Positions 1-33,602 of a DNA stretch of 42,764 nt are shown piece after piece. Position numbers and translations under genes: made by a program. Under the pieces are notes generated by a model. That model was not told the origin of the DNA, did not search any database, and worked only from the letters and a program-made list of their open reading frames with translations. How positions within the stretch are numbered: the stretch's first letter is position 1; each line of letters begins with the position of its first letter. The DNA comes from a virus. The DNA lies in the IMG/VR virus record IMGVR_UViG_3300020214_000001, positions 1 through 42,764 of that record. The stretch is one strand, 5' to 3'.

Positions 1-127
1 AAGACTCAACGAGGGAATGCTCCCGGCAAAAGTTTGCGCCTGCGCGAAACCACGCTGCGCGAAGTAATCGAGATGGCAGAGTCGTGCGACTGCACGTTCA
101 GTGAGGTGGCTCGCGACCTCATTGATG
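1..127. repeat. Terminal direct repeat, left copy (circular closure)
   Basis: These 127 bases are identical to the last 127 bases (42638-42764). The repeat lies inside one open reading frame that continues smoothly across the join, so the genome closes into a circle of 42,637 bp. The length of exactly 127 suggests an assembler k-mer overlap, not a biological terminal repeat. Confidence 0.95.
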
Positions 128-363
128 GAGCGTTGGAGATGCTGCACGACCCCAAGCAGCGCACGCTGCCGACTCCGCTGCTGCGACTGCGGCAGCGGTT
201 AAGCGACCCGCCGCGCACGGTGGACGCGCCCAAAATGGCGGCGTCTGTGGACATGACTACACTCGAAGCGCGTGTCACGGCGGGCGTACTGGCAGCGTTG
301 CAGCGGGCGGGCGTGATACCCAACCGTGACAGCGAATGTCAGACGGGGGACAGCGACCAGTAG
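1..363 (+). CDS. Ribbon-helix-helix-like regulator, 3' part (gene starts at 42623 across the join)
   Basis: Joined to bases 42623-42637, this gives a 125-residue protein. The first half reads as a short basic strand (KSLRLRE) followed by two predicted helices around 'VIEMAE' and 'SEVARDLIDGAL', the layout of Arc/CopG/MetJ ribbon-helix-helix repressors, which bind DNA as dimers. The C-terminal half is proline- and arginine-rich and unassigned. The gene is transcribed divergently from the excisionase-like gene at 42526. It converges on the integrase, overlapping its 3' end by 25 bases (339-363). Position and fold suggest a lysogeny or early-gene regulator. The fold call is from pattern only, and no regulatory target is proven. 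Confidence 0.6.
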   Translation, partial: KTQRGNAPGKSLRLRETTLREVIEMAESCDCTFSEVARDLIDGALEMLHDPKQRTLPTPLLRLRQRLSDPPRTVDAPKMAASVDMTTLEARVTAGVLAALQRAGVIPNRDSECQTGDSDQ

Positions 364-1469
364 GCGGCAGCTTGAGCGGCAGACACCGCACGGCGATAGT
401 GGTTGAAGGTCACAGCGGGCGCGTGGTGGCCAAGCTCAAGGGCGGTGCGGGCGGGGTCCCGGTGGTGGACAAGGTGGTGTGAGGCATAGGAGTGGCGGAG
501 GGCGTTGTCGGGGACGACGACCTTGGCGCGGAGGGCAACTCGAAATCGGCGGCGTTGCAGCGGGGTGTTGCCCCGGCCCAACAAGACACGACCAACCGGC
601 GGGTCAGGCATTAGCAGCCGGTCCCGATAGGCCAACACGGGGGGTGTCAGAGACACCCATCGCTCGGCGAGCCGCGTCTTTCCGGGCGAAACGTAGAGCT
701 GTCCATCCTCCCAGCGAATGTCCTCCCATGACAGCCGGGCGACCTCGGAGGACCGCAGGCCGCAGAAAGCCCCGAAGACCAGCCAGCGCAGGGTCAGGAC
801 ATCGGCGTGGGACAGCAGTGCCGCGAGCTGGTCTGGTGTCAGGATGCCGGGCGGGGTGCGCCGCGCGGTGGGTGGGACAACTTCAGTGGCCGGGTTCGAC
901 GGCAGCCAGCCCTGTCTCACACACCAGCCGAGGGCAGCCCGGAGGGTGTTCAACAGGTTGACTCGGGTCCGGGCAGCGGCAGGCAAGTTGTCGAAGACAA
1001 CTTGAAGGGCGGGCGTGGTGAGGTCGCGGAGCGGGGAGGTGAGGGTGGTGGTGGCGCAGGGTTCCCGACGCAGGCGCAGTACACCGCCTCGAACCGTGGC
1101 CTCGTGCAGTTTGGAGATATCGCCGCAGTCAAACCGTCGGCGGAGGTCGGCAAGGTAGTCGGTAAGGACATCGGTCAGCGGGCGGGCGCAGAAGGCCCGC
1201 AGGCGGGCATGCGCACGGAAGGCGTCTTCCATGTCGGACAAGGGGAGGACGGCCCGCCAGCGGGCAAGGAGAAGCTGCTCGTCCCGCGTAATCGGAGCGA
1301 CCGCGTGGGCCGAAAGGCGATGCAACAAGTCCGCAAGGTCGCGCTGTGCGTCCGCTTTAGTTGTGTGGTAGTGGCGGACAGCGCGACCGAAGCAGGAAGC
1401 AGGGGCGACCACTTCAAATTTGTAGCGCGGGTGGAGGGAGATTCGGAGGCGGGGGCGGGGTGCAGGCAT
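339..1469 (-). CDS. int: Tyrosine recombinase (phage integrase)
   Basis: Integrates and excises the phage genome at the host attachment site. The C-terminal half has the tyrosine-recombinase signature (numbered from the ATG at 1469): Arg239 in 'GLRSSEVARLSW', Lys264 in 'PGKTRLAERW', Arg325 in 'NALRHSYASHHL', His348 in 'ELGHHAP' and nucleophile Tyr358 in 'FNHYRRAV'. The first His of the usual HxxR box is Asn here. The N-terminal 200 residues fit arm- and core-binding domains. An upstream ATG at 1508 would add 13 residues, but that stretch overlaps repeats shared with other control regions and looks regulatory, so 1469 is preferred. The gene lies beside the putative attP, as expected. Its end overlaps the ribbon-helix-helix gene by 25 bases. 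Confidence 0.93.
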   Translation of the reverse strand: MPAPRPRLRISLHPRYKFEVVAPASCFGRAVRHYHTTKADAQRDLADLLHRLSAHAVAPITRDEQLLLARWRAVLPLSDMEDAFRAHARLRAFCARPLTDVLTDYLADLRRRFDCGDISKLHEATVRGGVLRLRREPCATTTLTSPLRDLTTPALQVVFDNLPAAARTRVNLLNTLRAALGWCVRQGWLPSNPATEVVPPTARRTPPGILTPDQLAALLSHADVLTLRWLVFGAFCGLRSSEVARLSWEDIRWEDGQLYVSPGKTRLAERWVSLTPPVLAYRDRLLMPDPPVGRVLLGRGNTPLQRRRFRVALRAKVVVPDNALRHSYASHHLVHHRDPARTALELGHHAPAVTFNHYRRAVSAAQAAAYWSLSPV

Positions 1470-1498
1470 AGGGGTGTAGCCAATTATGTAGCCGGGGA

Positions 1499-1528
1499 AA
1501 TGAAACATGACTGCAATCCACTGTCAAT
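1499..1528 (-). promoter_or_regulatory. Putative integrase promoter/operator
   Basis: On the minus strand this begins with ATTGACAGTG (TTGACA at 1522-1527). A weak TTCATT lies 17 bases downstream (1499-1504), about 30 bases before the preferred integrase start. The 26 bases 1503-1528, read on the minus strand, match plus-strand bases 42586-42611 at 21 of 26 positions, just upstream of the ribbon-helix-helix gene. A shared promoter or operator is inferred. Confidence 0.45.
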
Positions 1529-2238: not shown

Positions 2239-2580
2239 CTAGCAGACACCCCCTTTCGCCTTGGCGATGGCTGACAGCGCCGCCTTGATGTATGGCCGGG
2301 TGTATGGGTTTTGTGTCTCGTAGTGTTCGCCTGTGACGAACGACTCGACCACGGCTTCCAGTGCGGCCAGTAGGTCGGGTGCGGCGGCGATGAGGGCGGC
2401 TTCTGCTTTTTTCTCCGCGTCCAACCCTAGGTAGGATTGGAGATTCTCTCGTAGGCGAATCAGTTCGGCGTCTGACAAGTCGAGTTCCTCCGCGATATAG
2501 TCGAAGGTATCAGCGTCGGCGAGCGCGAAGCGGGCAACTTCGAGGTAGGTGATGATGTCGTTTTGGATTTCAGCTTTCAT
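2239..2580 (-). CDS. Small phage protein with 'APDLLAALE' helix, function unknown
   Basis: A 113-residue acidic, mostly helical protein. Residues from about 66 read 'ALIAAAPDLLAALEAVVE' and the C-terminus ends 'AALSAIAKAKGG'. This core and tail are very common in small phage proteins of unknown function. It is the last gene of the leftward operon that includes the AAA+/VWA pair. The neighbouring 2624-2929 product has the same layout ('RLIASAPELLAAL' ... 'RAAIAKANGG'), so the two look like distant paralogues. The first 37 bases of the gene belong to a perfect 38-bp tandem duplication. Confidence 0.8.
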   Translation of the reverse strand: MKAEIQNDIITYLEVARFALADADTFDYIAEELDLSDAELIRLRENLQSYLGLDAEKKAEAALIAAAPDLLAALEAVVESFVTGEHYETQNPYTRPYIKAALSAIAKAKGGVC

Positions 2581-2621
2581 GGCTAGGTGATGATGTCGTT
2601 TTGGATTTCAGCTTTCATGGC
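2546..2621. repeat. Perfect 38-bp tandem duplication over a gene start
   Basis: Bases 2546-2583 and 2584-2621 are identical and adjacent. The left copy carries the ATG (2580) and first codons of the 2239-2580 gene. The right copy carries the same ATG at 2618, but the frame meets TAG after 11 codons, just before the real start. The unit is not a multiple of three. Confidence 0.95.
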
Positions 2622-2623
2622 AC

Positions 2624-2929
2624 TCACAGGACGAATACCAGTGCAGAGGGTGTGCCCCCATTCGCCTTGGCGATGGCGGCGCGAACGATGGCAAGCTCGG
2701 GAGAGACATAGCCCTTGCGTGCGCCCTTGATAGCTGGACGCATATATCTTTCGGCGACAAACAGCGCGGCCAACAATTCCGGTGCGCTGGCGATGAGCCG
2801 AGCGTTAGCTTGCTCCTCTGACTCGGTGTCCCCCATTGCAACCTTGCAGACCATCTTGTTTCCATTTTCGGCCCAAACTGTATCCTGCATTGGCGTATGG
2901 TCCCACGGGCCGGGTGTGTGTGTTTTCAT
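2624..2929 (-). CDS. Small phage protein (HTPGPW N-terminus), function unknown
   Basis: A 101-residue protein starting 'MKTHTPGPW', an N-terminus widely seen in small phage proteins. The middle segment is 'ARLIASAPELLAALFVAERY' and the tail 'IVRAAIAKANGGTPS', like its neighbour at 2239-2580. The frame extends upstream to 2995, but that part is non-protein-like, and the ATG at 2929 is preceded by the ACACAAAACCACAAT leader that this operon uses repeatedly, so 2929 is chosen. No function is known to me. It probably belongs to the early accessory set co-transcribed with the AAA+/VWA genes. Confidence 0.8.
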   Translation of the reverse strand: MKTHTPGPWDHTPMQDTVWAENGNKMVCKVAMGDTESEEQANARLIASAPELLAALFVAERYMRPAIKGARKGYVSPELAIVRAAIAKANGGTPSALVFVL

Positions 2930-3038: not shown

Positions 3039-4703
3039 TCACTTCACCGTGATGGCGGCGACCAGTGCCGAGGCGAGCTGCTCACCAGTCGGCTTCATAA
3101 TGCCGCGTCCGAAGTGATGCTTGAGGGCGGCAGCGTGGGCTTCTGCGCGTTTTTCGTTCTCGGGTGCCGTGCAGCACCCCACGAGGTTCACGCCACGGTT
3201 CCGATAAGACCCTGCGTCTACCGCTCCGCCGGTGATTTGGCCGTCTGTGTAACAGACCACTGCCGACGCCGCTTGCAATTCCCGAAGCGGGATTGCGTCA
3301 AGCGTGGCTCTGAACGAGTCACAGCCTAGCGCGGGAGTCACTGCGACGAGGTCGCGGAAGGAGACTGCGTCGAGGTTAAGGCGGCAGCGTTCGCCGCCCC
3401 CGGTCAACCAAATGTCGCAGTCAATGACACGACGGCGGTGCAGCGCGACGAGGGCGAGCAAAAATGACCGCCCGTGGACTAGATGGGGGAGTCCCATGCT
3501 CCCCGAGCAGTCGAAGATTGCGACCAATTTCCGGCGACCCCGCTCCGCTGCATTCCGAAGGAATGCGTTGCTCTGTCCGGTGATGGCGTTGCCGAAATGA
3601 AGTTTGCGCCCGTCACACCCTGTCGAGGCAGGGGCGACCCCAGCCCGGCGAACAATGTCCGCCAAACGATTCGTCTGTTGCTTGACGGCGTTGCCGTCAA
3701 CGTGGTCCAGCGGTCTATCCCGGATGCCGGAGTTTTGAAACCGCTTGATGTTTCCCATTCGGGAGGCTGGCCCCGGTGGAGTGTTCCGAAGCTCTGCTGG
3801 AATGTCGGGTGACAACTCTGTTGGGGCCGTAACTCCGTTGCCGCCCGCACCGTAGCCTGACGAGCCGCCAAGCTCCTTAGTGCCCTCGCCGCCCGAACCC
3901 GAGGGCGTCGCTCCTTCGGGACCGGAGCCGTCCGATTCCCCGGCTACCACGCCAGACCCGCGAGAGTGACGCTCGACTTTCGGGCCGAAGTCACGGAGCC
4001 AGTCCCCGAGAACACCGCCGAGGCCGGTTGTTGATTTCGTGTCTATGACACGGCGGAAGTGTGCCTTAATCGTCGGTAGAACCTGTCGTTCGGGGATGGT
4101 AGAACCATCAGGGCGAAGCCAGTCACCGCCTGTCCAGCGGGGGCAGCGAACCGCGAGGGACGAAAATGCAGATGACTCGCCGTTAATTAGCGACCAAAAG
4201 ACCGTAGTTGGTTTGCCGGTATCTTCTGGCTGTTCGTAATAGTTGACCCAACCGAACCGACCAGTGTCAAAACTGTCCTTGAAAGACGCATCGGCCCGGG
4301 CAGCGTGTTCGATGCGAGCATCCTCAAAGAGATTAAACAGGGCGAACGGGATGCCCTTCTCCCGAAGGGCAGTGGCTACTCTAGAACCATCGCGTTCTGT
4401 CAAATGACCGTGCCAAACCTCATGCAGAAGCAGAGCTTGTAGGCACTGGTATTGCCGTCGTTCCGATGCCTTTGCGTCCGCTGACAGGCTTTCTACGAAT
4501 TTCAACCCGAGTTCAATTTCGTGGCGATTCTTGGCCGAATTAAAGTGCCAACAGGCCGTGGCCAATTTTTCGTTTGGCTGTGTAAGAGACGACGTCCCCG
4601 TGCGTCCTCTAAGATTCCGAATACAACCTTCCCTCTGTTTCGCGGTCTTGTTTCGTAACCCCCAACTTCGTGCCTTACGAAACAACTCTAATGGAGTTTT
4701 CAT
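3039..4703 (-). CDS. VWA-domain protein with N-terminal HExxH metallopeptidase-like domain (CobT/DUF2201-like)
   Basis: 554 residues. The N-terminal domain has HEVWH at residues 94-98 followed by 'LFEDARIEH' (125-133), the HExxH plus downstream acidic motif seen in the putative metallopeptidase part of VWA proteins. A glycine/serine-rich linker spans about 245-295. The C-terminal von Willebrand A domain has the metal-binding MIDAS motif D398-C-S-G-S402 in 'LVAIFDCSGSM' and a later 'YTDGQITGG'. Proteins of this build act with MoxR/CobS-type AAA+ ATPases, and such an ATPase is the next gene upstream (4810-6150). The pair probably remodels or inserts metal into a target protein. No cobalamin genes are present, so a chelatase role is unsupported. 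A CA/A-rich leader precedes the ATG at 4703. Confidence 0.8.
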   Translation of the reverse strand: MKTPLELFRKARSWGLRNKTAKQREGCIRNLRGRTGTSSLTQPNEKLATACWHFNSAKNRHEIELGLKFVESLSADAKASERRQYQCLQALLLHEVWHGHLTERDGSRVATALREKGIPFALFNLFEDARIEHAARADASFKDSFDTGRFGWVNYYEQPEDTGKPTTVFWSLINGESSAFSSLAVRCPRWTGGDWLRPDGSTIPERQVLPTIKAHFRRVIDTKSTTGLGGVLGDWLRDFGPKVERHSRGSGVVAGESDGSGPEGATPSGSGGEGTKELGGSSGYGAGGNGVTAPTELSPDIPAELRNTPPGPASRMGNIKRFQNSGIRDRPLDHVDGNAVKQQTNRLADIVRRAGVAPASTGCDGRKLHFGNAITGQSNAFLRNAAERGRRKLVAIFDCSGSMGLPHLVHGRSFLLALVALHRRRVIDCDIWLTGGGERCRLNLDAVSFRDLVAVTPALGCDSFRATLDAIPLRELQAASAVVCYTDGQITGGAVDAGSYRNRGVNLVGCCTAPENEKRAEAHAAALKHHFGRGIMKPTGEQLASALVAAITVK

Positions 4704-4733
4704 GGTTTTTTTTTTTGTGTGTGGTTTCGACTG

Positions 4734-4787
4734 CCGTCATTCGACGGTGCGGAGTCCCGCCTGCTACCCTCTGTCAAGGACAGAGGG
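4734..4787. promoter_or_regulatory. Intergenic hairpins between the AAA+ and VWA genes
   Basis: CCCTCTGTC (4767-4775) pairs perfectly with GACAGAGGG (4779-4787) around AAG, and CCGTC (4734-4738) pairs with GACGG (4743-4747). They fill the 106-base gap between the AAA+ stop and the VWA leader. They could set the ratio of the two products by attenuation or RNA processing, which is an inference. Confidence 0.6.
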
Positions 4788-4809
4788 CAGACAGCGACAC
4801 TCAGTCGGG

Positions 4810-6150
4810 TTAGACTTTGGTTAGCTCCTTAAACCAAGGAGCGGTGAGGGCGGCTACGTTCGGGTCCGTGTCCCCTAAGTCCCCGTCCCAGCTCGCAATC
4901 TGGCTGTTTAGGTGTTTCGTGACGAAGTCCCCGACACCAGCCTCGTCCGCAATGGCGGCGCAGGAGCAAGCCGACTCCAAGAGTCGGAAGTCTACCGGGT
5001 AGTTGATGCGGCCTTCCTTACAAGCCTGACGGCTTGTGTTGATGAGCTTGGCATAGCGTTCGGCGAAGCTCGCCGAAGCGGTAATGCCAAAGGAAGCGAG
5101 GATAGCCGAAGCGACTGCTGTGCAGTCTGCCAAGTTCCAATCGAGCCGAACTTTGAACCACCGCGACCAGAATGCTTCAACGGGGCGAGCCAATCCAAGA
5201 TTGGATGCCGCGATGATATGCAAATGCTTCGCTTTGCATTCAAGAACTTCGAGTTTGCCGGAGTCTGCCCGTCTGGTTCTAAGACGGTAAGCACCGCCAT
5301 CCGGTGTCTTGACACCAGTCAAGAAGGTGAGCAGCCATTCTTGCGCCTTCGGGTGAAGGCGGAAAACCTCGTCGAAGAAGACGAGGACATTTTTGCCAGT
5401 AGCGGCTTGCCGGACAGCTTCCGTGAGGATGCCGTCAACCACAATAAACCCGCCACTCCCATCAGGGATGGGATTGCCGAGCAATGTGGCGACTTCGTCA
5501 ACGTCTTCGGAGCAGCCGTGTTCCATCAGCAAGTCATACGACTTGCCGAGCAACCGGATGCTGTGGCTCTTTCCGAAGGACGGCGGAGCCGTTACGACAA
5601 CTTTCACAAGCTGGTCATTGCCGGGCTTGTAGAACGGCAGCAGCTTGTCGAGGATGTGATTCCCGGAGGCAGCAGCAGCCACCAAAGGCAGCCGGGCCGC
5701 TGCGCTAGCGTCCGTCTTGACCCGTTCAGCGAGGTCAGCCAAAGGCTTAATGCCTTCGGCCAACGCCGCGACCTTGTCTTCGACAGAGTCCACAAGCGGC
5801 TCGACGATGCCACGCACCGCAGCCTCATCCACACCAGCCTTCGGCTGGTGAGTGAGCAGACCCCGAAGCGTGCCAAGCAAACCCTCAACATCCGGCGAAG
5901 CCGGAGCGGGAGCAGCGGGAGCAGCGGGAGGCATCCAATAAGCGCGAAATTCCGCCAGCTTAACCCCAGAGGGGTCGTTGTAAATTTCACGCAGTCTGTC
6001 CATAGACAGGCTGGCGACAGCTTCTCGACTGCATCCATTGGCTTGCAGCCAATTACGCACTTTGCTTCGGGCTTCTGCCCCGCTGAGGACAGTCGAGCCA
6101 CGAGGCCCGATGGCAGCTTCTAGAGCTGCGATTTCAAACGTGGATTTCAT
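4810..6150 (-). CDS. MoxR/CobS-like AAA+ ATPase
   Basis: 446 residues from the ATG at 6150. The frame extends to 6219, but the extra part is the CA-repeat leader and an overlapped gene end. The N-terminal 75 residues are helical, followed by an Ala/Pro linker and a coiled region. The AAA+ core starts near residue 180: Walker A 'APPSFGKS' (188-195, lacking the usual first Gly), Walker B 'VLVFFDEV' (Asp260, Glu261), sensor-1 Asn317 in 'IIAASN', and a likely arginine finger in 'FWSRWF' (Arg330). It resembles MoxR/CobS ATPases, which work as rings with VWA partners, and the VWA gene follows. Substrate unknown. A host-takeover, virion-maturation or anti-defence chaperone are all possible. Confidence 0.83.
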   Translation of the reverse strand: MKSTFEIAALEAAIGPRGSTVLSGAEARSKVRNWLQANGCSREAVASLSMDRLREIYNDPSGVKLAEFRAYWMPPAAPAAPAPASPDVEGLLGTLRGLLTHQPKAGVDEAAVRGIVEPLVDSVEDKVAALAEGIKPLADLAERVKTDASAAARLPLVAAAASGNHILDKLLPFYKPGNDQLVKVVVTAPPSFGKSHSIRLLGKSYDLLMEHGCSEDVDEVATLLGNPIPDGSGGFIVVDGILTEAVRQAATGKNVLVFFDEVFRLHPKAQEWLLTFLTGVKTPDGGAYRLRTRRADSGKLEVLECKAKHLHIIAASNLGLARPVEAFWSRWFKVRLDWNLADCTAVASAILASFGITASASFAERYAKLINTSRQACKEGRINYPVDFRLLESACSCAAIADEAGVGDFVTKHLNSQIASWDGDLGDTDPNVAALTAPWFKELTKV

Positions 6151-6188
6151 GTGGTTTTTTTTTGTGTGTGTGTTTGTGTGTCCGACAT

Positions 6189-6362
6189 TCACAGCGTGTA
6201 AAATTCTGACACGTTGCACGCCGTGAAAAACTTAACTTTGTCAAACCGTGGGTTTGCTTTTAAGAAGATTTTGGCATTTACTTCCGCCGCTTTGCGGCGT
6301 TCGTCAATGTTTTCAATTTTCTTGATGAGGTTGGCCGCTAAGATGAAATGTTTTCGAGTCAT
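6189..6362 (-). CDS. Small phage protein 'MTRKHF...NPRFD', function unknown
   Basis: A 57-residue product: MTRKHFILAANLIKKI, then 'DERRKAAEVNAKIFLKANPRFDKVKFF'. The start, the 'ERRKAAE' helix and the 'NPRFD...F' ending match a small protein family found in many phages, usually about 55-65 residues and of unknown function. The ATG at 6362 lies 19 bases after the stop of the 44-aa gene. Its stop precedes the AAA+ ATG by 38 bases, which hold the CA/A-rich leader. Recognition of the family is from memory of its pattern. The coding call is firm because the motif is intact from start to stop. Confidence 0.8.
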   Translation of the reverse strand: MTRKHFILAANLIKKIENIDERRKAAEVNAKIFLKANPRFDKVKFFTACNVSEFYTL

Positions 6363-6381
6363 AACTTGTTATGGTTAAGGT

Positions 6382-6516
6382 TTAACCGAGGATGGCGGCG
6401 CAGATTAAATAGGTGACTACCAAAATCGCCTCAATCCAAAGACATACGCGGATTGAGGGCAGGCATTGGCAGACATTTTCTTGCACTGCGTGGTAGGATT
6501 TGATGAACTTTCTCAT
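6382..6516 (-). CDS. 44-aa single-pass membrane protein
   Basis: The ATG at 6516 follows the same A-run/CACA leader seen before the AAA+ and VWA genes, which selects this start over longer in-frame ones. The product is short: a basic N-terminus (MRKFIKSYH), then a hydrophobic stretch from about residue 26 ('VCLWIEAILVVTYLICAAILG') to the end, predicting one transmembrane helix with little after it. Function unknown. As the first firm gene of the AAA+/VWA operon it could be a membrane anchor, a small lysis or exclusion peptide, or a regulator. No family is recognised. Confidence 0.65.
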   Translation of the reverse strand: MRKFIKSYHAVQENVCQCLPSIRVCLWIEAILVVTYLICAAILG

Positions 6517-7070: not shown

Positions 7071-7727
7071 GTGTCTGACACGCTTCCCGCACCTTCCGCA
7101 TCGCTTGTCCGTCGTCGTGCTGTGAAGGACTTTCGTCCTAGCGTCCGCATGACCAAGGCCGCGATGCGTGAGGCTGGTGCTGCGCCCGGGCGACCGCTGG
7201 CAGTCATGACTCAGGAGCAGCGCACGGAGTTGGTGAGCGCGTTCGAGCGCGGTGCTGATGTCCTGACAGCGTGTGATTCAGCAGGAGTTGGCTATCAGGT
7301 ATTTGGCCGAATAATGCAGGATGAGCCGGCGTTTCGAGACTCCATAAAAAAGGCTCAGGCTGTTCACATCCAAGCCGCGCTCGCGCGGTTGCGCGAACTC
7401 CCTGCGGGACGCTGGCAGGCGGCAGCGTGGGAGCTTGAGCGCATTTACCCTGACCGATTCGGTCAGGGCACTCGTCCTGACTTGTCAGGACCCGTAGTGA
7501 AAGTCGAAGTTACGGCGACAGTTTGCGCCCAAATGAATGAATCTTGGAACCGCTTTGCTTCGCAAATCATTGAAGTTAAGCAGGTTGCGGATTCGGCAAC
7601 TCACAATTCCAGTTATGTACAATCGAAGATTGTAAATCACGGAAGTCCAACACCTTCAATCACTTCGGAAGAATCTGTTGCCAAAGTTCCTCAAGGAACT
7701 TCCGTGCCGATTCAGCGTGTTGCGTAA
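7071..7727 (+). CDS. terS: Small terminase subunit-like protein
   Basis: 218 residues, directly upstream of the large terminase and overlapping it by one base (TAATG). The middle holds a helix-turn-helix-like stretch ('RTELVSAFERGADVLTACDSAGVGYQVFGRIMQDEPAF') followed by 'RWQAAAWELERIYPDRFG', an ending typical of small terminases and phage terminase-like HTH proteins. It would recognise the packaging start on phage DNA and load the motor. The C-terminal 60 residues are polar and unassigned. The start is uncertain: GTG at 7071 lies inside a 20-base block nearly identical to 6168-6187, and an in-frame ATG at 7149 is a fair alternative. Confidence 0.75.
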   Translation: MSDTLPAPSASLVRRRAVKDFRPSVRMTKAAMREAGAAPGRPLAVMTQEQRTELVSAFERGADVLTACDSAGVGYQVFGRIMQDEPAFRDSIKKAQAVHIQAALARLRELPAGRWQAAAWELERIYPDRFGQGTRPDLSGPVVKVEVTATVCAQMNESWNRFASQIIEVKQVADSATHNSSYVQSKIVNHGSPTPSITSEESVAKVPQGTSVPIQRVA

Positions 7728-7813
7728 TGCCTGTTACGCGCAAAACCACCGAAGGTGGTCAACAGCCCCGCGAGCGGCGTTCAAGGCCCGCCGCGCCGCT
7801 GTCAGAGACAGCG
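7686..7813 (+). promoter_or_regulatory. Hairpin cluster at the terS/terL junction (possible packaging site)
   Basis: Perfect hairpins: GTTCC/GGAAC (7686-7699), ACCACC/GGTGGT around GAA (7745-7759), and CGCTGTC/GACAGCG around AGA (7797-7813). They cover the end of terS and the low-complexity N-terminal part of terL. Packaging sites often sit in or near terS, so a pac role is conceivable, but nothing here proves it. Confidence 0.25.
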
Positions 7814-9274
7814 TTCCACCCGACCCGGGGGGCGGGGGGACAGCCCGGGGCCATACCTCGACAGGGGTGGCTTAAAATGGGTGAAAACAAAAAGGCTCCC
7901 CCGCTACTTGGGACTCCGGTTTGGTTTGCGCGGGAAATGCTTCGCCTTAAACCCTACACTTGGCAGGAGAACGTAATGTGGGATGTGGCGCTTGGTCGCA
8001 AGCCCGTGGCCTTAGTAGCGGCCAACGGCTCAGGCAAGACGCAGAACGTGGCCGCGCCGCTCCTCCTTTGGCATTGCGCGACGTTTCCGCACTCGCAGGT
8101 AGTCACCACAGCGGGTGTGTTTCGTCAGGTCAAGGAACAGCTTTGGAGCGCATTGCGCGAGCACCAGCCCCGGCTGGGCAACGGCTGGGAAATCAACCAG
8201 TGTGACTTGCACGCCCCCAACGGTTCTCGCGCCGTGGGCTTCTCCACGGACGACGCAGGCAAGTTTGAGGGCTGGCACAACACAAATCTCTTAATGATTG
8301 TGGACGAAGCAAAGTCCGTCCCAGATGTTATTTTTCAAGCCATCGAGCGCTGCCAGCCTACGCGCCTCTTGTTGATGTCCAGCGCAGGCTCGGCGGAAGG
8401 GGAGTTTGCTTCCGCGTTCAGCACTCGACGCGCGTTTTACTCTGCTCACCGTGTCACTTCGATGGACTGCCCCCACCTGTCTGACAAGTGGGTGGCGGGT
8501 CAAATCGAAAAGTGGGGCCGGGACCATCCGCTCGTCCGGTCTATGATTTTCTCGGAGTTTAACGAGGTGTCTGGTTCTGAGATGGTATTAAGTCGGGTAA
8601 CGCTGGCCGACTGTTTAGACCGACCACCCGCGTATGTGCCCGGCCCCCGGCTGGCATTTATTGATTGGGCCGCTGGCCGGGACGAGAATGTCGTTGCGAT
8701 TGTCTCCGGCAACCGGCTGGAACGGCTTATTTGCTGGCGAGACAAAGATACGATGGCCGCAGCGGGTCGCGCGATTAGCGAATTGCGCCGTTGGGAAGTT
8801 CCTAACGGCAATGTGTTTGCGGACGACGGGGGGCTGGGGCACCCTATTAACGACGCCTTGGTGGCCGCTGGTGTTCCAGTGCGGCGGCTGCTAAATGGCC
8901 AGACTGCTTTTTCAACTGAGCACTACGCCAACCTTGGCGCAGAGTTGTGGTTTTCGGCTGCCCGCCGCATTGAGCGGCGTGAGGTTATCCTGCTGGACGA
9001 CGAGACACTGCTGGAACAGATGACGTGCCGGAAGCGTGTTACTACGTTGCAGGGCAAGGCGGCTTTGGAAAAGAAAGAAGACATGAGGGCGCGGGGGGTG
9101 TCCTCCCCCGACCGGGCAGATGCCGTCTTTGCCGCATTGGCGATTGCGGGGATGTTAGGTGGTGGATACGATTTGGAGGGTATGTCCGACACTCAGTCTG
9201 AAACACGGACTTTGTCCACTGCTGATGCTAATGAACAGCAAGCGCGTTCTGAGCTGGGTTGGTATGCAGGTTAG
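7727..9274 (+). CDS. terL: Large terminase subunit (packaging ATPase/nuclease)
   Basis: 515 residues. Drives DNA into the prohead and cuts it. ATPase: Walker A 'AANGSGKT' (98-105), Walker B 'LLMIVDE' (188-194, Asp193/Glu194) and coupling motif 'LLLMSSAGS' (from 214). RNase H-like nuclease: Asp313 in 'LAFIDWAAGRDE', Asp366/Asp367 in 'NVFADDGG', and a late Asp in 'SPDRADAVFAAL'. The start at 7727 makes a TAATG overlap with terS. The first 50 residues are Arg/Pro/Gly-rich, and the in-frame ATG at 7877, with the TTAAA leader common in this phage, may be the true start. The protein would then be 465 residues. Confidence 0.93.
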   Translation: MPVTRKTTEGGQQPRERRSRPAAPLSETAFHPTRGAGGQPGAIPRQGWLKMGENKKAPPLLGTPVWFAREMLRLKPYTWQENVMWDVALGRKPVALVAANGSGKTQNVAAPLLLWHCATFPHSQVVTTAGVFRQVKEQLWSALREHQPRLGNGWEINQCDLHAPNGSRAVGFSTDDAGKFEGWHNTNLLMIVDEAKSVPDVIFQAIERCQPTRLLLMSSAGSAEGEFASAFSTRRAFYSAHRVTSMDCPHLSDKWVAGQIEKWGRDHPLVRSMIFSEFNEVSGSEMVLSRVTLADCLDRPPAYVPGPRLAFIDWAAGRDENVVAIVSGNRLERLICWRDKDTMAAAGRAISELRRWEVPNGNVFADDGGLGHPINDALVAAGVPVRRLLNGQTAFSTEHYANLGAELWFSAARRIERREVILLDDETLLEQMTCRKRVTTLQGKAALEKKEDMRARGVSSPDRADAVFAALAIAGMLGGGYDLEGMSDTQSETRTLSTADANEQQARSELGWYAG

Positions 9275-18400: not shown

Positions 18401-19141
18401 ATGTCACAAAACACGTTTGAGCTTTTAGCTATTGAATTGGCCAACCTCGGGTTGGCTGGGCCTCCGGGTCCGCAAGGACCGCAAGGCGAGGTTGGCCCGC
18501 AAGGTCCCGAAGGCCCGGCGGGTCCCGACGGCCCGCAAGGTCCCGAAGGCCCGCAAGGGGCGCAAGGAGACGCCGGTGAAACCGGGTTGCAAGGTGACGT
18601 TGGCCCGCAAGGTCCCGAAGGCCCGCAAGGGGCCGAAGGCTCGCCCGGAGCACCGGGCATTAACGGTGGCACTGTATATGTTGCTTATGCTTCTGACACT
18701 GCCGGAACAGATTTTTCAACGTCTCCGTCGCAGTCACTTTCTTATATCGCTATTAAAGAGACGTATGATTTGATTCAAAACCCTCAAGCCAGTGATTTTG
18801 CGGGTTTGTGGGTCAAATTTTTAGGGGATACCGGGTCGCAAGGTCCGCAAGGTCCGCAAGGCCCGCAAGGTCCGCAAGGCACGCAAGGTCCGCAAGGCGA
18901 GCAAGGTCCGCAAGGCACGCAAGGGCCACAAGGCGAGCAAGGGCCACAAGGCGAGCAAGGGCCACAAGGCACGCAAGGTCCGCAAGGCACGCAGGGACTT
19001 GCCGGAGCCAACGGTGACGCAACCGCGTATAGTCCGGCGGTTTCGGCGGATTGGGACGGCACCGCCCCCACTACGATTGGCGCAGCATTAGACCGTTTGG
19101 CGGCCTTGGTAAAAACACTAAACGACGGAACTGGGGCTTAA
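18401..19141 (+). CDS. Collagen-like fibre protein with two Gly-X-Y blocks
   Basis: 246 residues. After a 22-residue head comes a first collagen block of Gly-X-Y triplets (about 23-86, mainly GPQ, GPE and GPA). Then a 60-residue globular module '[52 protein letters not shown]', a form seen between collagen blocks in phage fibres, and a second block (about 146-205, nearly pure GPQGxQ). The C-terminal cap is '[28 protein letters not shown]', a likely trimerisation region. It should form a trimeric rod on the virion, probably a fibre stalk. The DNA repeats may change length by slippage. Confidence 0.85.
18829..18996 (+). repeat. 9-bp tandem repeats encoding the second collagen block
   Basis: Near-perfect repeats of the units GGTCCGCAA, GGCACGCAA, GGCGAGCAA and GGGCCACAA, each encoding Gly-X-Gln. 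Identity between units is high at DNA level, so slippage could add or remove triplets in frame. A more diverged block of the same kind lies at about 18466-18656. Confidence 0.85.
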
Positions 19142-25913: not shown

Positions 25914-28900
25914 ATGGACCCAATCACCGGAGTTAGCCCGCTGCTTGCCCGACAATGGGCGCTGATGCGCGAGAAGACTCGCGCAGAAGGCGGCTGGGAC
26001 CCGTGGACCCCCGAGCAACGCGCCAACGCGGTAGCAAATTTCTCTAACCAATGGCTCGACGCCAACCCGGAAAATCTGGGCGTGAAGGTCGCTGTGGCCG
26101 ATTTCCAACGCCGGATTGCCCAGCAGGAGGAAGCGCGTGCCGCGCGTAATGTTAATGTTCTTACCCCTTTGACTGCCGCAGCTCCGCAAAGCTACGACTT
26201 CACCATTCAGCCGCAGCCCTATACGCCCACGGCCAACCCATCCCAGACAAACATGGTGGAATACGCGCCCGCCGCCGTCGCGCCGAGGAATCAGAATAGC
26301 TTTTTCGGTGACATCGAGCGGGGCTGGGATGACAAGGGCGAGCGGGTCGCACAGTCCTTGTTGCTTAGTACGGGGCAGTTCTCCAAGGACGACCTCAAGC
26401 GCCAGTTCGCGGACGAGTATGTAAAAGAGCAGTTGTCTGACACGTATGAGAAGCCGCCGAGCTTTATTCCTCATTTAGCGGGTGAACTGGCCCGCACCGT
26501 CACGGGCACCGCGCTCGCAACGGGCGCAGGCTACGGCCTTGGTGGTCTTTTGTGGGCTGGTTCAGTCGAAGGCACCGCTGCGCGGATGCAGTCGTGGCGG
26601 GACAACACTTTCTCGGCAGCAGACAATCTTGAAAATTTTGACAGTGCGTTCGACAAAGCATCCGGCATTGCCACCCGGGCGGGTGTTTTGATGGGTGGCG
26701 CGTCAATGGTGCCCGTGCCCCTTGTTGTCGGCTCGCTTGGCAAGGGCACCGCAGTAAAGGGTCTTGTGCAAAGCGTTGCGCCCGGCATGGCAAACGTGGC
26801 GACAAAAGCGGCAGAAACCGCCGCTGGGAAAGCCGTGGATGCGGCGGGCAAAAAGTTGTTTGGCTCATCAGCGGCGGCATTGGACCGCTATCTCCTCAAA
26901 GACTCCACGCTGACCGGCGCGGCCCGCTTTGCGGCGCAAACAGGGAGGTTGGCGGCGCTGTCGGGGGTGGAAAACGTCGCTGCCGAAAGCGCAAACATTG
27001 GGCAGGAACTCCTGTCAGGCAGCGAAAACACGCGGGGCGGTTCGGTAGGCGGGCGGCTCGGCATGGCGGGCGTGACTGGCAGCGTCATCTCGGCTGCCCA
27101 TAGCGCCGGTGGCAAAGTCTTCAAAGCAACCAAAGACGGCACTTTGATTGACGGAAATTTGTTCGCTGACGAGAACTTGGCGGGCGCGGTGAACTTCATC
27201 CTGTCTGACAAGTGGAAGACCGCACGCGGCGACCAAGCCGCGACGGCCCGGCTGGCGAAGGCGATGGCGACCCCGGAAGGGGAAGTCGTCTCGGCGGTCG
27301 GGGATGCGGCCACCGTGGGCAACCCGGTGTTCGACGCCATCACGCGCAAGAATCCCAGCTTTGAGGCTAAGTTCACGGACGAGCAGCCCGCCAGTTCGCC
27401 GGACGCGCTAGGTCACGCCGCCGAGAAGCTGGTGACGTTTTTCCAACGCTACGGGCGAGTGACCAGCGCAGAGCAGGCGGCGACCGTGCTGCACGAGGCG
27501 GGACACGTCCATCTGGACACCCTTGCGCCCCGCTTGCAGGACGTTCTGTTCGACAAGTTTCGCGCGGAAATGACGACCGGGGACAGCCCGTTGCTTCGGG
27601 GGCTGACCAAGGAGGGCAAGCCAGTCGAACAGGGTTGGGTGGACCCGCAGGTGGTGAAGTTTTGGGAGAAGTCACAGGACGCTTCGCTCACGCCTGCCCA
27701 ACGGGCGGAGTTCGCCAACAAGGCGTTCCGCGAGTGGTATTCCGAGCGCATGGTTTTTCAAGAGCAGGCGTGGGCCGAACGCCGGGTTGACCGGGCAACG
27801 GACACCTCTGTTTTTGGTCGCCTGCTTAACGACATTAGCGCCCGCGCCGAGATGGTTGGCCGGGCGATGGGCCTCTCTGACCCGCTCGGCTTCCGCCGGA
27901 CATTGGACGAGGGACCCAACGCGGACCCCGTCAACGCCACCCTTCCAATGGTGATGGAGAAGCTCGGAGCAAAAGTTGAACCGCCAGTTTCTAAAAAACC
28001 TTTTGCCGAGTCTAACCTTGCTCCGGGCGTGCTTATTGGCACCCCGCCCAAAGACGCTAGTTCAGACGGGCAGACGTTGTTTGGGTCGCCAGAAACCCTA
28101 CGGGCAGCAATTCTCGGCGAGACGCCGACAACTCCGAAGTCGGTGCTGGACGCCATGCCCGCCGACGACGTGGCCCGCCTGCGCCGGGAAAACCTGCGTC
28201 AGAGCTTTGAGGAGCTGGCTGCGCCGCCCGTGGACCCGCGCCTGCCCGCCCGCTACCAGCCGGAGGAAGGGGTCGCGGCCAATGTCCAGACAGCCGAACG
28301 CCGCCTACTTGCCCGCGAGCTGCGAGCCAAGCTGGAAGCCGAGCAGCCCAAGCCTGCCGAGGTTGCGCCACCCAAGCCTGCCGAGGTTGCCGCAGAAGCC
28401 CCGCCCGCGCCGCGTCTCGTAAAAAGCGCGGACGAGGAAGGTGGATTCTCCGCGTCGCCAGTCCCGTTGTCTCCCCGCACGGGAGAGGAGTTCAAGCTCG
28501 CGCCGAACGACCCGGCCTACAACTACCGGATGGATGCGACGCAGCCCATGATTACGATGGGCGACAAGGTGTCCTTCGTGCAGACGATTGAGAAGACCAC
28601 CAAGTCGGGGCGCACAAAACGTGTGCCCGGCCCCCGACTATTCGGCACGGTAGAGGGCTTCACCGAGGGTGGTCAAATCACCGTGCGCGTCTCCGAAGAA
28701 GGTCGCACGGGTGACTACTTTATGAACTTCAACTCGGGGCGTTTGCTGCGCCGCGAGGCCGCCCCGGAAGCCAAAGCCCCCGCTCCGGTGCCCGAAGCCC
28801 CGTCTGCGCCGCTTATCCGCGCGGCGGGCGAGAAGGTAGGCCGTGGCGAAGCCATGACCTACGACGAGAAGATGGCCCTACGCGCGGCCATTGAGCAGGA

Positions 28901-31900
28901 GACAGAGCAGGCACGGCTGGCCCGGCGCAGCGCGTTGGACGACCTTAGCACGCGCAAGCGCACCCTCTCGCCCGCCGATGAGGCAAGGCTCGACCAGTTG
29001 GCAGCAATCATGGACACGGGCATGGCGTCCAAACAGCAGGCCAAGGAATACCGCGCACTGCGCGAGGCCAAGCAAGCCGCTGCCAAACCGCCGCCGGAAG
29101 AAGTCTTGGAAAACAACCGGCTGGGCTGGGCCGACCGGCACAACGGCTGGCTGTTGCCCGACGGCAGGTTCATCGAAACCGAGCCAGCGGCAGCGGTCTA
29201 TTTTCGAGGATTTGACGGAGAACTGCGCCCCGGCTCGCACGGCGAGGTTGCCCTTGCGTGGCTGCAACAGAACGACCCCCAAGCACTTCAACAGTTTCGC
29301 CCCCCTTTCAACGACGATGCTGTGGAGAGCGAGATGTTCCGGCGCGGCTGGGTCCGCATCGCCGAAGGCGGGCAAGTCAACTATTTGCAGGGCAAGCCCA
29401 ACCAGAGGCAGGAAGCTGTCTTGGCGGAATGGTCGGCTGAGGCAGCCAAGACGGAAGGGGAACCGATTAAATGGTCGCGCGTTGCCCCCGGCAACAGCCC
29501 CAAGCGAAGGGTTGACGGCTCTCTAACTAGCGCGTGGATTCGTGAAGCCAACCTTGGGGGCGGTGGCGAGGACCAGCTCTCTGTACGCAAGCGGCTAGAC
29601 GACGATGAAGTCGAGTTGCGTCTATCCGCCGCCACGGGGCAAATTCCCGGTCTAAACCAACTGCAAAAACGGGCAGCACGCGGCGGCCCCGATGGGCGAG
29701 TAGCGCAGCAACTTCTGTCCGACACAGCTACCGACGCGCTAAACCACTACTTCGCCAACACGGACTTAATAGTAGTTTCAACCCCAACGATGGGCGTGTT
29801 CGGTAGCGCATACGAACCGTCAGTTAATGTGCAAGTGCGAGGTTCAGAAGAATCTTTGGCCCACGCCCTTGCTGGCGCGGTCAGGTTCGGGCGCAATTTC
29901 TCTCAGAAACAAGTTCACGTTTTACGCAACGCGCCGGACGACGCAGTCATCGGCGCAAACACAACCGACGGGTCGCGGGTGGTCCCGTTCTACACGTTTG
30001 AACTCAAGCAACCACTGTCCGCGCCGCAAGTCCAAAAACTCGCAAAAGATTCCCGCCTAGAAGGTTTCACGATTGACGGCAACAAATTGGAAATTTATTA
30101 TGCAGAAGACATACATGACACCGCCGGACTCCGAGCCTTCAAAGAAGGCATCCAACGCGCCGAAGCATCCCTTGGCAGTAATGCACGAGGAGTTACTAGC
30201 ACATTTTCGCGCCTCTGGTCTTACGGTAAAGGAGGGCCAGAAACAGTTCCCTACGGACGGGTTCCAGATAAACTTCCAGCCACACCGGAAAGACGAGACA
30301 ACCCCATCGCCCGACGAATCGCCGCGCGATTAGTTGAGCGGGACGTAGTGGGTGCCCACCCGGCAAGCCGTCTCACCCCCGAACAAGACGCCTATCAAAC
30401 ACGGGTGGCGGATGAGTTTAGCAGGCTTCCGCTAGACGACCTTGAAAACCCGAGCGTCAACCGGGCATATGCCGCGCTGGCGGCAGAACTAAAGGACCAA
30501 TACCGGAGCTTACCCGTTCGTGTAGAGACGTGGCCCGGAAAAGAACAGCCCTACGAAAACTCGGCGGCGATGCGCCGGGACATTTTCGACAACAACCACC
30601 TTTTCATTTTTGGGACCGACAAGAATACTTTCGGCCCCAAGGGGGCAAAATACAGCGACGACCATCCTTTGTTGCAGGAATCGTCCTTCAAGGATGTCAA
30701 CGGTCGTCGGTTACTCGTGAATGACCTCCTTCGCGCGGTTCACGATTATTTTGCTCACACGATGAGCCGCGCCGAGTTTGGCCCGCTGGGGGAGGAAGCC
30801 GCATGGCGAATCCACATGGAAATGACGCGCAGCCCGTGGGCGCGTTGGGCGTTGACTACGGAAACACGCGGCCAAAACTCTTGGGTCAACTTTGGGCCGC
30901 ACCGTGAGTGGAACCGGGCGCACCCTAAAGAAACCCGTTACGCAGAACAAAAGACTGCGTTGCTGCCGATTGAGTTCACGAAGCTGGGCGACCCGAGACT
31001 CGACGCGGAAATGGACGCTGCTTACGATAGAGGAAATTTCTCTCGACGCAAACTTCCGTCTGGGCCAACGCCGACCGCCGAGCCGCGCGACTTCCCCGAG
31101 CGGGCCGGACGCGCCGACCCCGAGCTGGGCCGCATCAACGCGGCGCGGCCTGACATCCACTTCTACGAGCCGCAAACCATCACGGACGGCATCGCCGCCG
31201 CTTCGGGCAAAGCCGATGCTGCGTTAGACGCATCCCTCGCCGCGCTCAACGCTAAGGTAGAAACGGACACGTTAAACAACTTCCTTGTCCTCGACGGACT
31301 TGAACGGATGCGCCGGGCTTTAGACGCGGGTGACACGGCTAAGGCAGAGAGTGTCTATGACACTTTGTCAAAAGCCGGGACTACTCTCGGCCAGTTGCTC
31401 CGCCAATTTGCAGAGTTCCGCACGCCCAAGACGCCGGAAAATGTGGTGGCTTTGGTGGAGCTGGGCCTTGCAAAGCGCGGGCTGCGGTTGCAGGACGGGC
31501 AGAAGACCCGGCTGCGCGGGTTGGTGGATGCTTCTGAAACCGCCCGGAACGATTACGAGACTGCGGCAGAAGCAGCCCTTACAAACCCGGCGGCTGTGGA
31601 AAAAGATTTTCGCGCAGTGGACAAGCTGGAACTAGCCGCCGGGCAAGCCGAGCGCGAGTGGCGGCGTTACGCAACCGTAATGTTCCCGCGCGAGTCCCTG
31701 TCCCGCGACTTGCTCGCGGTTATCCAAGGCAACCTGCTCACGGCCAAGTCCACGGTCAGGAACTTCTGGCACAACTACGCGACTGGCTCGGTTCGCCTGC
31801 CCTCCCGGCAGTTGGGCGCCATGGTGGACGCAGCGGTGAGCGCAGCCCAAGGCCGGGAGCGTTCGCTTTCCGGCGTGTCACTGACCGAGGCCCAATGGTT

Positions 31901-33602
31901 TGCCCGAGCGACGGCGGACGCGGTGCCGACCGCTGGGGAAATCCTTCTGCGGGGCAGTGGCGGTAACGAGCGGATAATAGGCGAGCGTATCCGTGGCTTT
32001 CATCCGGTTGACGCACTCATGCGAGCGTTCAACGGGGACCTGCCAGTGGACACAGTGACCGGCACGGTGCCCCTCAAGCTGCGCGGATTGAAGCTCGCCG
32101 AAGCGTTCTTTGGTGCGGCCCCCGAGCCGATGCTGCGAAGTCTCGCGGCGATGGACGAAGTGGCCAAGGCGGGCTTCCGAGCTTCCCGGCTGGCGCAGGA
32201 ATTGAACCTCACCGGGGACAAGCCCGGCACGCGCGGCTACGCCGAACACCGATTGCGTGCGACCGGGGAACTACGGGCCAAAGCGGAAGAAACCGCACTG
32301 GAAGGCACGTTTCAACAAGACTCCGCAGCTTCGCAAGGCGCAAGCGCAGTAGAGGGCATAGTTCGCAAGGTGGCCGGGGAACCGGGGGCGGTAGCGTTCC
32401 GCCTTCTGACCTCGCCCTACATTAAAACGCCCGTGAACGTGGCCGTGGAAACCGTGTCCTACGTCGTGCCCGCGCTTGCGGCCACGCAGGCTGCGGTCTA
32501 CGGCTACCGGGGCGACCGCCGCGCGGCGTCCCTCGCCGTAGGCAAGTTCCTCACGGGCCTGACTCTGGCTGCCGCCGCCGACTGGCTGCTGGAAGACGGG
32601 CTAGTTTCCGGCGGGCCTGCTGGGCCAGATAAAATGCGGGAGTTTCAAATGTCTTCGGACATGGAGTTTTACCGCCTCAATGTTGACGGATTGAAGCGCA
32701 AGCTGGCCGGTGGCAGCGGTCGCTATGTGGACGGCGATACGACCTTCCGGCTGGACTTGCTCGGCATCCCGGGCGTTGTCTTCGGAGTCCGCGCTGACAT
32801 GGCAAACCTCGCCGAAACCGCAACCCCGAACCGGGTACCCAGCGAGGACGCGCAAAAATTTAACATTGAATTGTTCTCAGAGATGCTTGGCATGACACGC
32901 TTCATGGTGGACACGACAATGATGCAAAACGTGGGGAACACGCTCCGCGCTGTTGTCACTGGCGACGTAAACCGCGTGGTGCAAAACGTGGCCAGTCAGG
33001 TCGCCGTAGTCCGACCGGATTGGGCAAACACGGTTACGTCGTTCCGGCAAGCGCAGCGTGGCGTCATGCCAGATGTCAGGGACAAGGACATCCCGACCAT
33101 GCTCAGGAACGTGGTCGCGTGGAAAAACGGCGAATGGCAAGACCTTCCAAAGAAGCTGGATTTGTGGGGCAACCCCAGAACGGCGGTGCCCGAAGGAGTT
33201 GACCCTTACCTGCACGTTCTTGCCGACATTCGGCAACCCAAAACCGGACAAGACCGAGCGACGACCGTGCTGCAAAATGCCTACGCAGCGACACGCGACG
33301 ACCGGGTTATCCCCGGCTGGCCAAACCGCAACTTAGAATACAAAGATTTACCCAAAGGCTTGTATCTACCAGCACACTTATATCAATCGTATGTCCACGA
33401 TGTCATGCAAGCAAAGCGCGAGGTGTTGGGGAATCTGATTCAAAACCCAGAGTTCCTTGCGTCCCCGGCAAACGTGCAAGTAAACGTGCTGGACCGGGCC
33501 TACGACCGCGCGGGAAACCGAGCGGCGTTAGCATGGCGCGGACGCCATTACACCGAGTTGGAGAGCGAACGACAGAAGTTAAAAGCGTGGCTTGACCGCT
33601 AG
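25914..33602 (+). CDS. Giant multidomain internal virion protein (2562 aa) with putative metal-binding active sites
   Basis: 2562 residues, 18% of the genome. The N-terminal 180 residues are helical, followed by Gly/Ala-rich hydrophobic stretches (about 190-280) that may insert in membranes. H527-E-A-G-H531 ('TVLHEAGHVHLDTLAPRLQD') is a zincin-type HExxH motif. About 740-980 is Pro/Ala/Glu-rich linker. Near 1520-1680 lies a conserved phage block with H1610-D-Y-F-A-H1615, 'GEEAAWRIHMEM' and T1649-E-T-R-G-Q-N-S-W1657, which looks like a metal-dependent enzyme site. Long helical domains fill 1700-2560, with a hydrophobic 'FLTGLTLAAAADWLL' near 2200. Likely a polyvalent protein ejected with the DNA, acting on the envelope or host targets. 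Its stop overlaps the convergent 33599 gene by three bases. Confidence 0.75.
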   Translation: MDPITGVSPLLARQWALMREKTRAEGGWDPWTPEQRANAVANFSNQWLDANPENLGVKVAVADFQRRIAQQEEARAARNVNVLTPLTAAAPQSYDFTIQPQPYTPTANPSQTNMVEYAPAAVAPRNQNSFFGDIERGWDDKGERVAQSLLLSTGQFSKDDLKRQFADEYVKEQLSDTYEKPPSFIPHLAGELARTVTGTALATGAGYGLGGLLWAGSVEGTAARMQSWRDNTFSAADNLENFDSAFDKASGIATRAGVLMGGASMVPVPLVVGSLGKGTAVKGLVQSVAPGMANVATKAAETAAGKAVDAAGKKLFGSSAAALDRYLLKDSTLTGAARFAAQTGRLAALSGVENVAAESANIGQELLSGSENTRGGSVGGRLGMAGVTGSVISAAHSAGGKVFKATKDGTLIDGNLFADENLAGAVNFILSDKWKTARGDQAATARLAKAMATPEGEVVSAVGDAATVGNPVFDAITRKNPSFEAKFTDEQPASSPDALGHAAEKLVTFFQRYGRVTSAEQAATVLHEAGHVHLDTLAPRLQDVLFDKFRAEMTTGDSPLLRGLTKEGKPVEQGWVDPQVVKFWEKSQDASLTPAQRAEFANKAFREWYSERMVFQEQAWAERRVDRATDTSVFGRLLNDISARAEMVGRAMGLSDPLGFRRTLDEGPNADPVNATLPMVMEKLGAKVEPPVSKKPFAESNLAPGVLIGTPPKDASSDGQTLFGSPETLRAAILGETPTTPKSVLDAMPADDVARLRRENLRQSFEELAAPPVDPRLPARYQPEEGVAANVQTAERRLLARELRAKLEAEQPKPAEVAPPKPAEVAAEAPPAPRLVKSADEEGGFSASPVPLSPRTGEEFKLAPNDPAYNYRMDATQPMITMGDKVSFVQTIEKTTKSGRTKRVPGPRLFGTVEGFTEGGQITVRVSEEGRTGDYFMNFNSGRLLRREAAPEAKAPAPVPEAPSAPLIRAAGEKVGRGEAMTYDEKMALRAAIEQETEQARLARRSALDDLSTRKRTLSPADEARLDQLAAIMDTGMASKQQAKEYRALREAKQAAAKPPPEEVLENNRLGWADRHNGWLLPDGRFIETEPAAAVYFRGFDGELRPGSHGEVALAWLQQNDPQALQQFRPPFNDDAVESEMFRRGWVRIAEGGQVNYLQGKPNQRQEAVLAEWSAEAAKTEGEPIKWSRVAPGNSPKRRVDGSLTSAWIREANLGGGGEDQLSVRKRLDDDEVELRLSAATGQIPGLNQLQKRAARGGPDGRVAQQLLSDTATDALNHYFANTDLIVVSTPTMGVFGSAYEPSVNVQVRGSEESLAHALAGAVRFGRNFSQKQVHVLRNAPDDAVIGANTTDGSRVVPFYTFELKQPLSAPQVQKLAKDSRLEGFTIDGNKLEIYYAEDIHDTAGLRAFKEGIQRAEASLGSNARGVTSTFSRLWSYGKGGPETVPYGRVPDKLPATPERRDNPIARRIAARLVERDVVGAHPASRLTPEQDAYQTRVADEFSRLPLDDLENPSVNRAYAALAAELKDQYRSLPVRVETWPGKEQPYENSAAMRRDIFDNNHLFIFGTDKNTFGPKGAKYSDDHPLLQESSFKDVNGRRLLVNDLLRAVHDYFAHTMSRAEFGPLGEEAAWRIHMEMTRSPWARWALTTETRGQNSWVNFGPHREWNRAHPKETRYAEQKTALLPIEFTKLGDPRLDAEMDAAYDRGNFSRRKLPSGPTPTAEPRDFPERAGRADPELGRINAARPDIHFYEPQTITDGIAAASGKADAALDASLAALNAKVETDTLNNFLVLDGLERMRRALDAGDTAKAESVYDTLSKAGTTLGQLLRQFAEFRTPKTPENVVALVELGLAKRGLRLQDGQKTRLRGLVDASETARNDYETAAEAALTNPAAVEKDFRAVDKLELAAGQAEREWRRYATVMFPRESLSRDLLAVIQGNLLTAKSTVRNFWHNYATGSVRLPSRQLGAMVDAAVSAAQGRERSLSGVSLTEAQWFARATADAVPTAGEILLRGSGGNERIIGERIRGFHPVDALMRAFNGDLPVDTVTGTVPLKLRGLKLAEAFFGAAPEPMLRSLAAMDEVAKAGFRASRLAQELNLTGDKPGTRGYAEHRLRATGELRAKAEETALEGTFQQDSAASQGASAVEGIVRKVAGEPGAVAFRLLTSPYIKTPVNVAVETVSYVVPALAATQAAVYGYRGDRRAASLAVGKFLTGLTLAAAADWLLEDGLVSGGPAGPDKMREFQMSSDMEFYRLNVDGLKRKLAGGSGRYVDGDTTFRLDLLGIPGVVFGVRADMANLAETATPNRVPSEDAQKFNIELFSEMLGMTRFMVDTTMMQNVGNTLRAVVTGDVNRVVQNVASQVAVVRPDWANTVTSFRQAQRGVMPDVRDKDIPTMLRNVVAWKNGEWQDLPKKLDLWGNPRTAVPEGVDPYLHVLADIRQPKTGQDRATTVLQNAYAATRDDRVIPGWPNRNLEYKDLPKGLYLPAHLYQSYVHDVMQAKREVLGNLIQNPEFLASPANVQVNVLDRAYDRAGNRAALAWRGRHYTELESERQKLKAWLDR

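Follow-up and report, generated by a model that had tools for sequence, protein, structure and literature searches.

A MoxR-type AAA+ ATPase and metallopeptidase-VWA protein pair in a small temperate phage: probably a remodelling or proteolysis machine rather than a cobalt chelatase

A MoxR AAA+ ATPase partnered by a von Willebrand factor A (VWA) protein with an N-terminal metallopeptidase domain has been described in group 2.2 jumbo phages (Iyer et al. 2021; PMC7824862). A pair reported as 'cobST' is found in archaeal and bacterial tailed viruses, where it has been read as cobaltochelatase subunits and where the naming of phage CobT as a peptidase has been called an error (PMC8651126). Acidianus two-tailed virus likewise encodes a MoxR and VWA pair, p618/p892, which has a reported role in virion tail development but, as reported, lacks the metallopeptidase domain (PMC7824862). 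The combination of a MoxR-class ring ATPase and a VWA partner also recurs in NorQ–NorD, CbbQ–CbbO and CoxD–CoxE, which are metal-insertion or Rubisco activators, and an AAA+ protein joined to a C-terminal VWA protein is found in bacterial CobS–CobT, which operates with CobN. The locus considered here is an AAA+/HExxH-VWA gene pair in the virus record IMGVR_UViG_3300020214_000001, analysed over its full length of 42,764 bases (the window; Table 1). By published description it consists of the same two genes as the jumbo-phage pair, but it is carried by a temperate phage of ∼42.6 kb and has its relatives in other small environmental phages; sequence comparison places it as a divergent small-genome branch of an architecture already described. 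Rather than a cobalt chelatase, the pair is probably a remodelling or proteolysis machine driven by ATP.

The window proteins gave no usable match in direct Pfam, PHROGs, PDB-sequence or INPHARED tblastn searches, and its divergence is too great for BLAST to connect it directly with any INPHARED record. Viral scans with single proteins or two sequences recovered few loci; the family came into view with three-sequence alignments, and profile-guided scanning of viral contigs yielded 52 AAA+ loci and 21 VWA loci, and bacterial genomes contributed 7 further loci. Dereplication left 63 distinct AAA+ loci, mostly in uncultivated phages with a few on bacterial chromosomes. In all 60 distinct loci with a continuing contig, an HExxH-VWA gene lies directly 3' of the AAA+ gene in the same orientation; the remaining three contigs stop inside or just past the AAA+ gene. 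Since AAA+ motifs were the sole basis for finding most of the loci, this conservation of the partner is not circular for those loci. The initial annotation had noted that the two genes sit together; the pair is real, intact and widely conserved, to a degree well above what chance would give. Distances among the AAA+ proteins track those among their VWA partners (r = 0.92, 49 pairs), which fits a partnership but fits common descent or shared phage ancestry as well. Five Sulfurimonas/Sulfurimonadaceae genomes (L008, L010, L011, L012 and L013) carry the pair in chromosomal surroundings that are not prophage-like; the VWA gene of L013 is broken into several frames, and a VirD4/TraG-like gene lies near the pair in three of the five.

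The proposal that the VWA protein has gained an HExxH domain was borne out. All 51 aligned VWA proteins keep H94, E95 and H98 of the N-terminal HExxH, N124, E127, D128 and E132 of the helix that follows (a family-wide N-x-x-E-D-x-x-x-E motif), W152, and the metal-ion-dependent adhesion site (MIDAS) residues D398, S400, S402, T486 and D487. The AlphaFold2 (AF2) model places H94, E95 and H98 within helix 81–101 and E127, D128 and E132 within the next long helix, 120–137. Sequence and model together therefore show the arrangement expected of a zincin, an HExxH in a helix with a downstream acidic ligand, all of it invariant. A long, low-confidence linker (residues ∼263–299) separates the zincin-like and VWA domains, and in a fold search the model matches, over most of its length, phage proteins named CobT-like or VWFA, with flexible domain placement. 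The window protein does not match Pfam DUF2201_N/VWA-like (PF13203/PF09967), and DUF2201 was rejected as a parent family, as hhalign covers the VWA core only (E = 1.9e-4). The metallopeptidase and VWA parts are split into two overlapping open reading frames (ORFs) in three phage loci (L079, L080 and L081), and the same division has been reported in halovirus HHTV-2 (PMC8651126).

Profile comparison indicates that the window pair is homologous to the phage 'CobS/CobT-peptidase' pair. The VWA family aligns with the N-terminus of the cyanophage peptidase/CobT (hhalign E = 4.6e-8), HExxH and ED-RIE falling in register, and the AAA+ family aligns with cyanophage CobS (E = 1.3e-10). The A5 profile matches P-SSM2, S-PM2 and P74-26 and, weakly, HVTV-1, and among 35 family members compared with PHROGs, 11 match phrog_459 ('peptidase'), 13 phrog_249 ('porphyrin biosynthesis') and 23 phrog_16448 ('ATPase'). 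The cyanophage genes and viral cobST (phrog_459, phrog_249) likewise combine an HExxH…ED-RIE and VWA protein with a CobS-like AAA+ protein, but the cyanophage order is VWA then AAA+ where the window family has AAA+ then VWA, and the rest of the proteins has diverged strongly. HExxH is present in all eight named phage 'CobT/peptidase' proteins (S-PM2, P-SSM2, S-SCSM1, P-SSM3, P-RSM4, GMA7, HVTV-1 and Ochrobactrum phage OC), and six of them have a clear ED-RI(E/D) motif ∼25–40 residues past it, that of GMA7 and HVTV-1 being looser. HExxH is missing from the VWA protein of Thermus phage P74-26; loss or absence of the domain is thus possible.

Links to the bacterial proteins are weaker than those to the cyanophages, both for the AAA+ family against CobS (E = 4.2e-5) and for the VWA family against CobT (E = 8.7e-5, confined to the EDARIE region). 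Cyanophage CobS is itself clearly related to bacterial CobS (E = 6e-16), and the AAA+ line is therefore CobS-like in a broad sense. This distant kinship, together with the resemblance of the EDARIE helix to EQARVEA of CobT, lends something to the published interpretation of phage cobST (PMC8651126), by which the pair would be genuine CobS/CobT subunits that hijack host CobN to raise cobalamin supply; help from the host would also be compatible with a missing phage CobN. Yet HExxH occurs in none of 11 bacterial CobT proteins examined, and neither the window protein nor any of the 35 family members matches PF06213 (CobT) at E ≤ 0.1. Bacterial CobT was rejected as a parent family by profile comparison, with no significant full-length match. 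In 22 phage records, among them the circular window genome, profiles for CobN and for ribonucleotide reductase had no hit, other cobalamin genes not having been searched one by one. The retention of HExxH in the phage proteins, its absence from bacterial CobT and the lack of CobN and ribonucleotide reductase favour the peptidase reading, and a true chelatase is very improbable. The initial annotation had likewise considered a cobalt chelatase unlikely, and neither of the two findings that it named as speaking against its view emerged: the N-terminal HExxH does not vary, and CobN and ribonucleotide reductase are not seen in the 22 records. Vitamin B12 auxiliary metabolic genes are often said to include phage cobS/cobT, and the main gain here is sequence evidence against the cobalamin label: an HExxH invariant in the phage proteins examined and missing from the bacterial CobT examined, with no CobN, is a concrete reason to doubt it. 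One search returned 463 related records, and if the doubt is justified, hundreds of phage annotations denote a protein-remodelling machine instead.

The partner was confirmed as a CobS/MoxR-type ATPase. K194, D260, E261, N317 and R330 are kept in all 60 AAA+ proteins and R389 in all 59 that reach that position; N317, R330 and R389 are presumably the sensor 1 asparagine, arginine finger and sensor 2 arginine. The top Foldseek/PDB matches of the model are NorQ/CbbQ (E about 1e-12), the family profile matches Midasin, NorQ and CbbQ best, and the VWA model finds its best PDB matches in NorD VWA chains from solved NorQD complexes. There the VWA domain inserts a finger into the pore of NorQ, and hydrolysis of ATP twists the linker of the partner (PMC13036017). 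The window pair has these two elements and, in addition, a zincin-like domain on a long linker, from which a motor can be proposed. The AAA+ protein would assemble as a hexameric ring on which the VWA domain docks as NorD does on NorQ; ATP hydrolysis would pull or twist the VWA partner and its bound substrate and so bring the VWA protein or its cargo to the zincin-like domain, or control the peptidase; and the zincin-like domain would cut the substrate, or at least need metal for its function. The likeness to NorQD, which inserts iron (PMC13036017), could alternatively mean a metal-insertion chaperone of the NorQD/CoxDE kind, in which the HExxH handles metal that the ring loads into a phage or host metalloprotein, and several VWA sequences of the family do match VWA_CoxE weakly. 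NorD is, however, aligned over the VWA region only, and no dedicated metalloprotein gene was found beside the pair across loci, which makes this an unlikely account.

As for the substrate of such a motor, the neighbours suggest a workplace in replication, recombination and packaging. In relatives they include terminase, exonuclease, endonuclease VII, Erf, a replication initiator and a primase-helicase; the pair sits between gp46 and gp45/gp44 in S-PM2, between gp46/47-like (nuclease) genes and the sliding clamp in an Ochrobactrum phage, and close to the DnaB helicase in P74-26. The reading we lean towards, as somewhat the better than even choice, is a phage-type MoxR AAA+/metallopeptidase-VWA machine whose substrate may be a protein complex at the boundary between replication or recombination and packaging; that the substrate would be such a complex, and not a tetrapyrrole, is less certain than the motor itself. 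A wider generalisation, that phage 'cobST' represent one ancient class of ATP-driven metallopeptidases that clear or remodel proteins at the switch from replication to packaging and are not B12 genes, is offered tentatively and is at present doubtful. Several points weigh against the favoured reading. HExxH on its own is no proof of proteolysis, and what the AF2 models offer is similarity of fold alone. Gene neighbourhood is a weak guide to function, the more so as the genes that run in the pair's direction are terminase in one clade, replication genes in others and, in the window, the integrase; the bacterial chromosomal copies have no clear tie to phage replication. In one marine clade (L049 8556–9011 and relatives) the gene right after VWA encodes a SleB-like cell wall hydrolase or endolysin.

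The proximity of TerS/TerL in many loci might also point to a chaperone of virion assembly with a second role in processing structural proteins, by analogy with Acidianus two-tailed virus p618/p892. That role has been proposed for the same architecture in jumbo phages (PMC7824862), and ORF892 of the Acidianus virus turns up in the fold search with the VWA model. The pair nevertheless lies outside the head and tail gene block in the window, S-PM2 and P74-26, and the type of leader in front of its genes speaks for another class. In the window an A/C-rich leader without a Shine-Dalgarno sequence (for example CACACAAAAAAAAACC-ATG) precedes six minus-strand starts, at 6516, 6150, 4703, 2929, 39197 and 41774; it is common to the pair and replication genes, and the inspected starts of structural genes on the plus strand all lack it. 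Virion assembly is thus a minority prospect, although the least improbable of the alternatives to a machine acting at the replication/recombination-packaging boundary.

Table 1. Coordinates of the gene pair, its motifs and nearby features in the window.
Feature	Position	Strand	Remarks
HExxH metallopeptidase-like domain, low-complexity linker and VWA (MIDAS) domain, 554 residues	3039..4703	-	ORF; AF2 model, pLDDT (predicted local distance difference test) 83.6
HEVWH, residues 94–98, predicted zinc-binding/catalytic motif	4410..4424	-	invariant residues, 51/51
EDARIE, residues 127–132, putative third-ligand helix	4308..4325	-	invariant residues, 51/51
MIDAS motif DCSGS, residues 398–402	3498..3512	-	51/51
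MIDAS completing residues T486-D487	3243..3248	-	51/51
MoxR/NorQ/CobS-class AAA+ ATPase, 446 residues	4810..6150	-	ATG at 6150, in-frame GTG at 6219; AF2 model, pLDDT 84.4
Walker A APPSFGKS, residues 188–195	5566..5589	-	K194, 60/60
Walker B DE (in FFDE), residues 260–261	5368..5373	-	60/60
Predicted membrane peptide, 44 residues, four Cys	6382..6516	-	A/C-rich leader; no homologue found
Doubtful ORF, 57 residues	6189..6362	-	no homologue; no A/C-rich leader
Tyrosine integrase, closes leftward block	339..1508	-	PF00589 and phrog_1
Two phrog_1273 ORFs (2624–2929, 2239–2580), downstream of VWA gene	2239..2929	-	PHROGs match; function unassigned
TerS (7071–7727) and TerL (7727–9274)	7071..9274	+	divergent from pair

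The 42,764-base record carries an exact 127-base direct terminal repeat (1–127 and 42638–42764). As 127 bases is a word length common among assemblers, circularity was accepted: the genome, at 42,637 bases, is very probably circular and closed, the repeat most likely marking assembly overlap rather than biological ends, and the phage genome of ∼42.6 kb is probably complete. The phage is temperate, with an integrase encoded in the genome. The leftward block consists of the 44-residue ORF, the AAA+ and VWA genes, the two phrog_1273 ORFs and the tyrosine integrase. Rightward from beside it run TerS/TerL and, further on, portal-like and other structural genes, and across the closed ends of the circle lies a leftward replication block with genes for a helicase, a PD-(D/E)XK nuclease and DNA polymerase A. 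A divergent plus-strand ORF (−50..360), possibly a repressor, lies between the integrase-side block and the replication genes, so that transcription of the pair may be separate from theirs. Of the 'early operon' first assigned to the pair, the single leftward block shared with the integrase stands, but it is split from the replication genes by this ORF.

A position next to an integrase, a common site of cargo genes, also invites a conflict function, whether superinfection exclusion, lysogen defence or counter-defence, like that of the ternary systems in which MoxR-VWA pairs are central and of which rare examples include a metallopeptidase (PMC7159879). Against this, no VMAP, iSTAND, FtsH or other conserved third gene adjoins the pair, there is no strong PADLOC match, and the pair is present in phage clades without an integrase in the fetched flanks; such a function is accordingly a slim prospect. 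A ternary conflict system was set aside because the third component (VMAP, iSTAND, FtsH-like or beta-propeller) was not found: no gene is common to the neighbourhoods, though no dedicated profiles were used.

The small satellites that the initial annotation had included in the system fared less well. By tblastn (E ≤ 1), neither the 44- nor the 57-residue ORF has a counterpart in the fetched loci, and a short transmembrane peptide upstream of the AAA+ gene occurs in just 1 of 56 loci; both were rejected as conserved parts of the system. The 57-residue ORF, once described as conserved, also has no A/C-rich leader. The 44-residue membrane peptide is probably a real gene of the leftward block, since its leader matches those of the AAA+ and VWA genes, but not a conserved part of the system. 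The suspected Cys-rich mini-protein was not identified as a separate gene; the 44-residue ORF itself has four cysteines. Transmembrane peptides follow the pair in 8 of 54 loci against 17 of 315 random stretches, the downstream stretch being longer than the random ones.

Three further features of the window were noted. A tandem direct repeat with a unit of ∼37 bases (2546–2619) spans the ORF start at 2580 and the stretch ahead of ORF 2624–2929. The structural block encodes, on the plus strand, a protein with collagen-like GPQGPQ repeats (18401–19141). Also on the plus strand, a 2562-residue protein (25914–33602) bears a HEAGH motif of its own (TVLHEAGHVHLD) and, from its sequence, looks like the large multi-domain type of protein that is injected alongside phage DNA.

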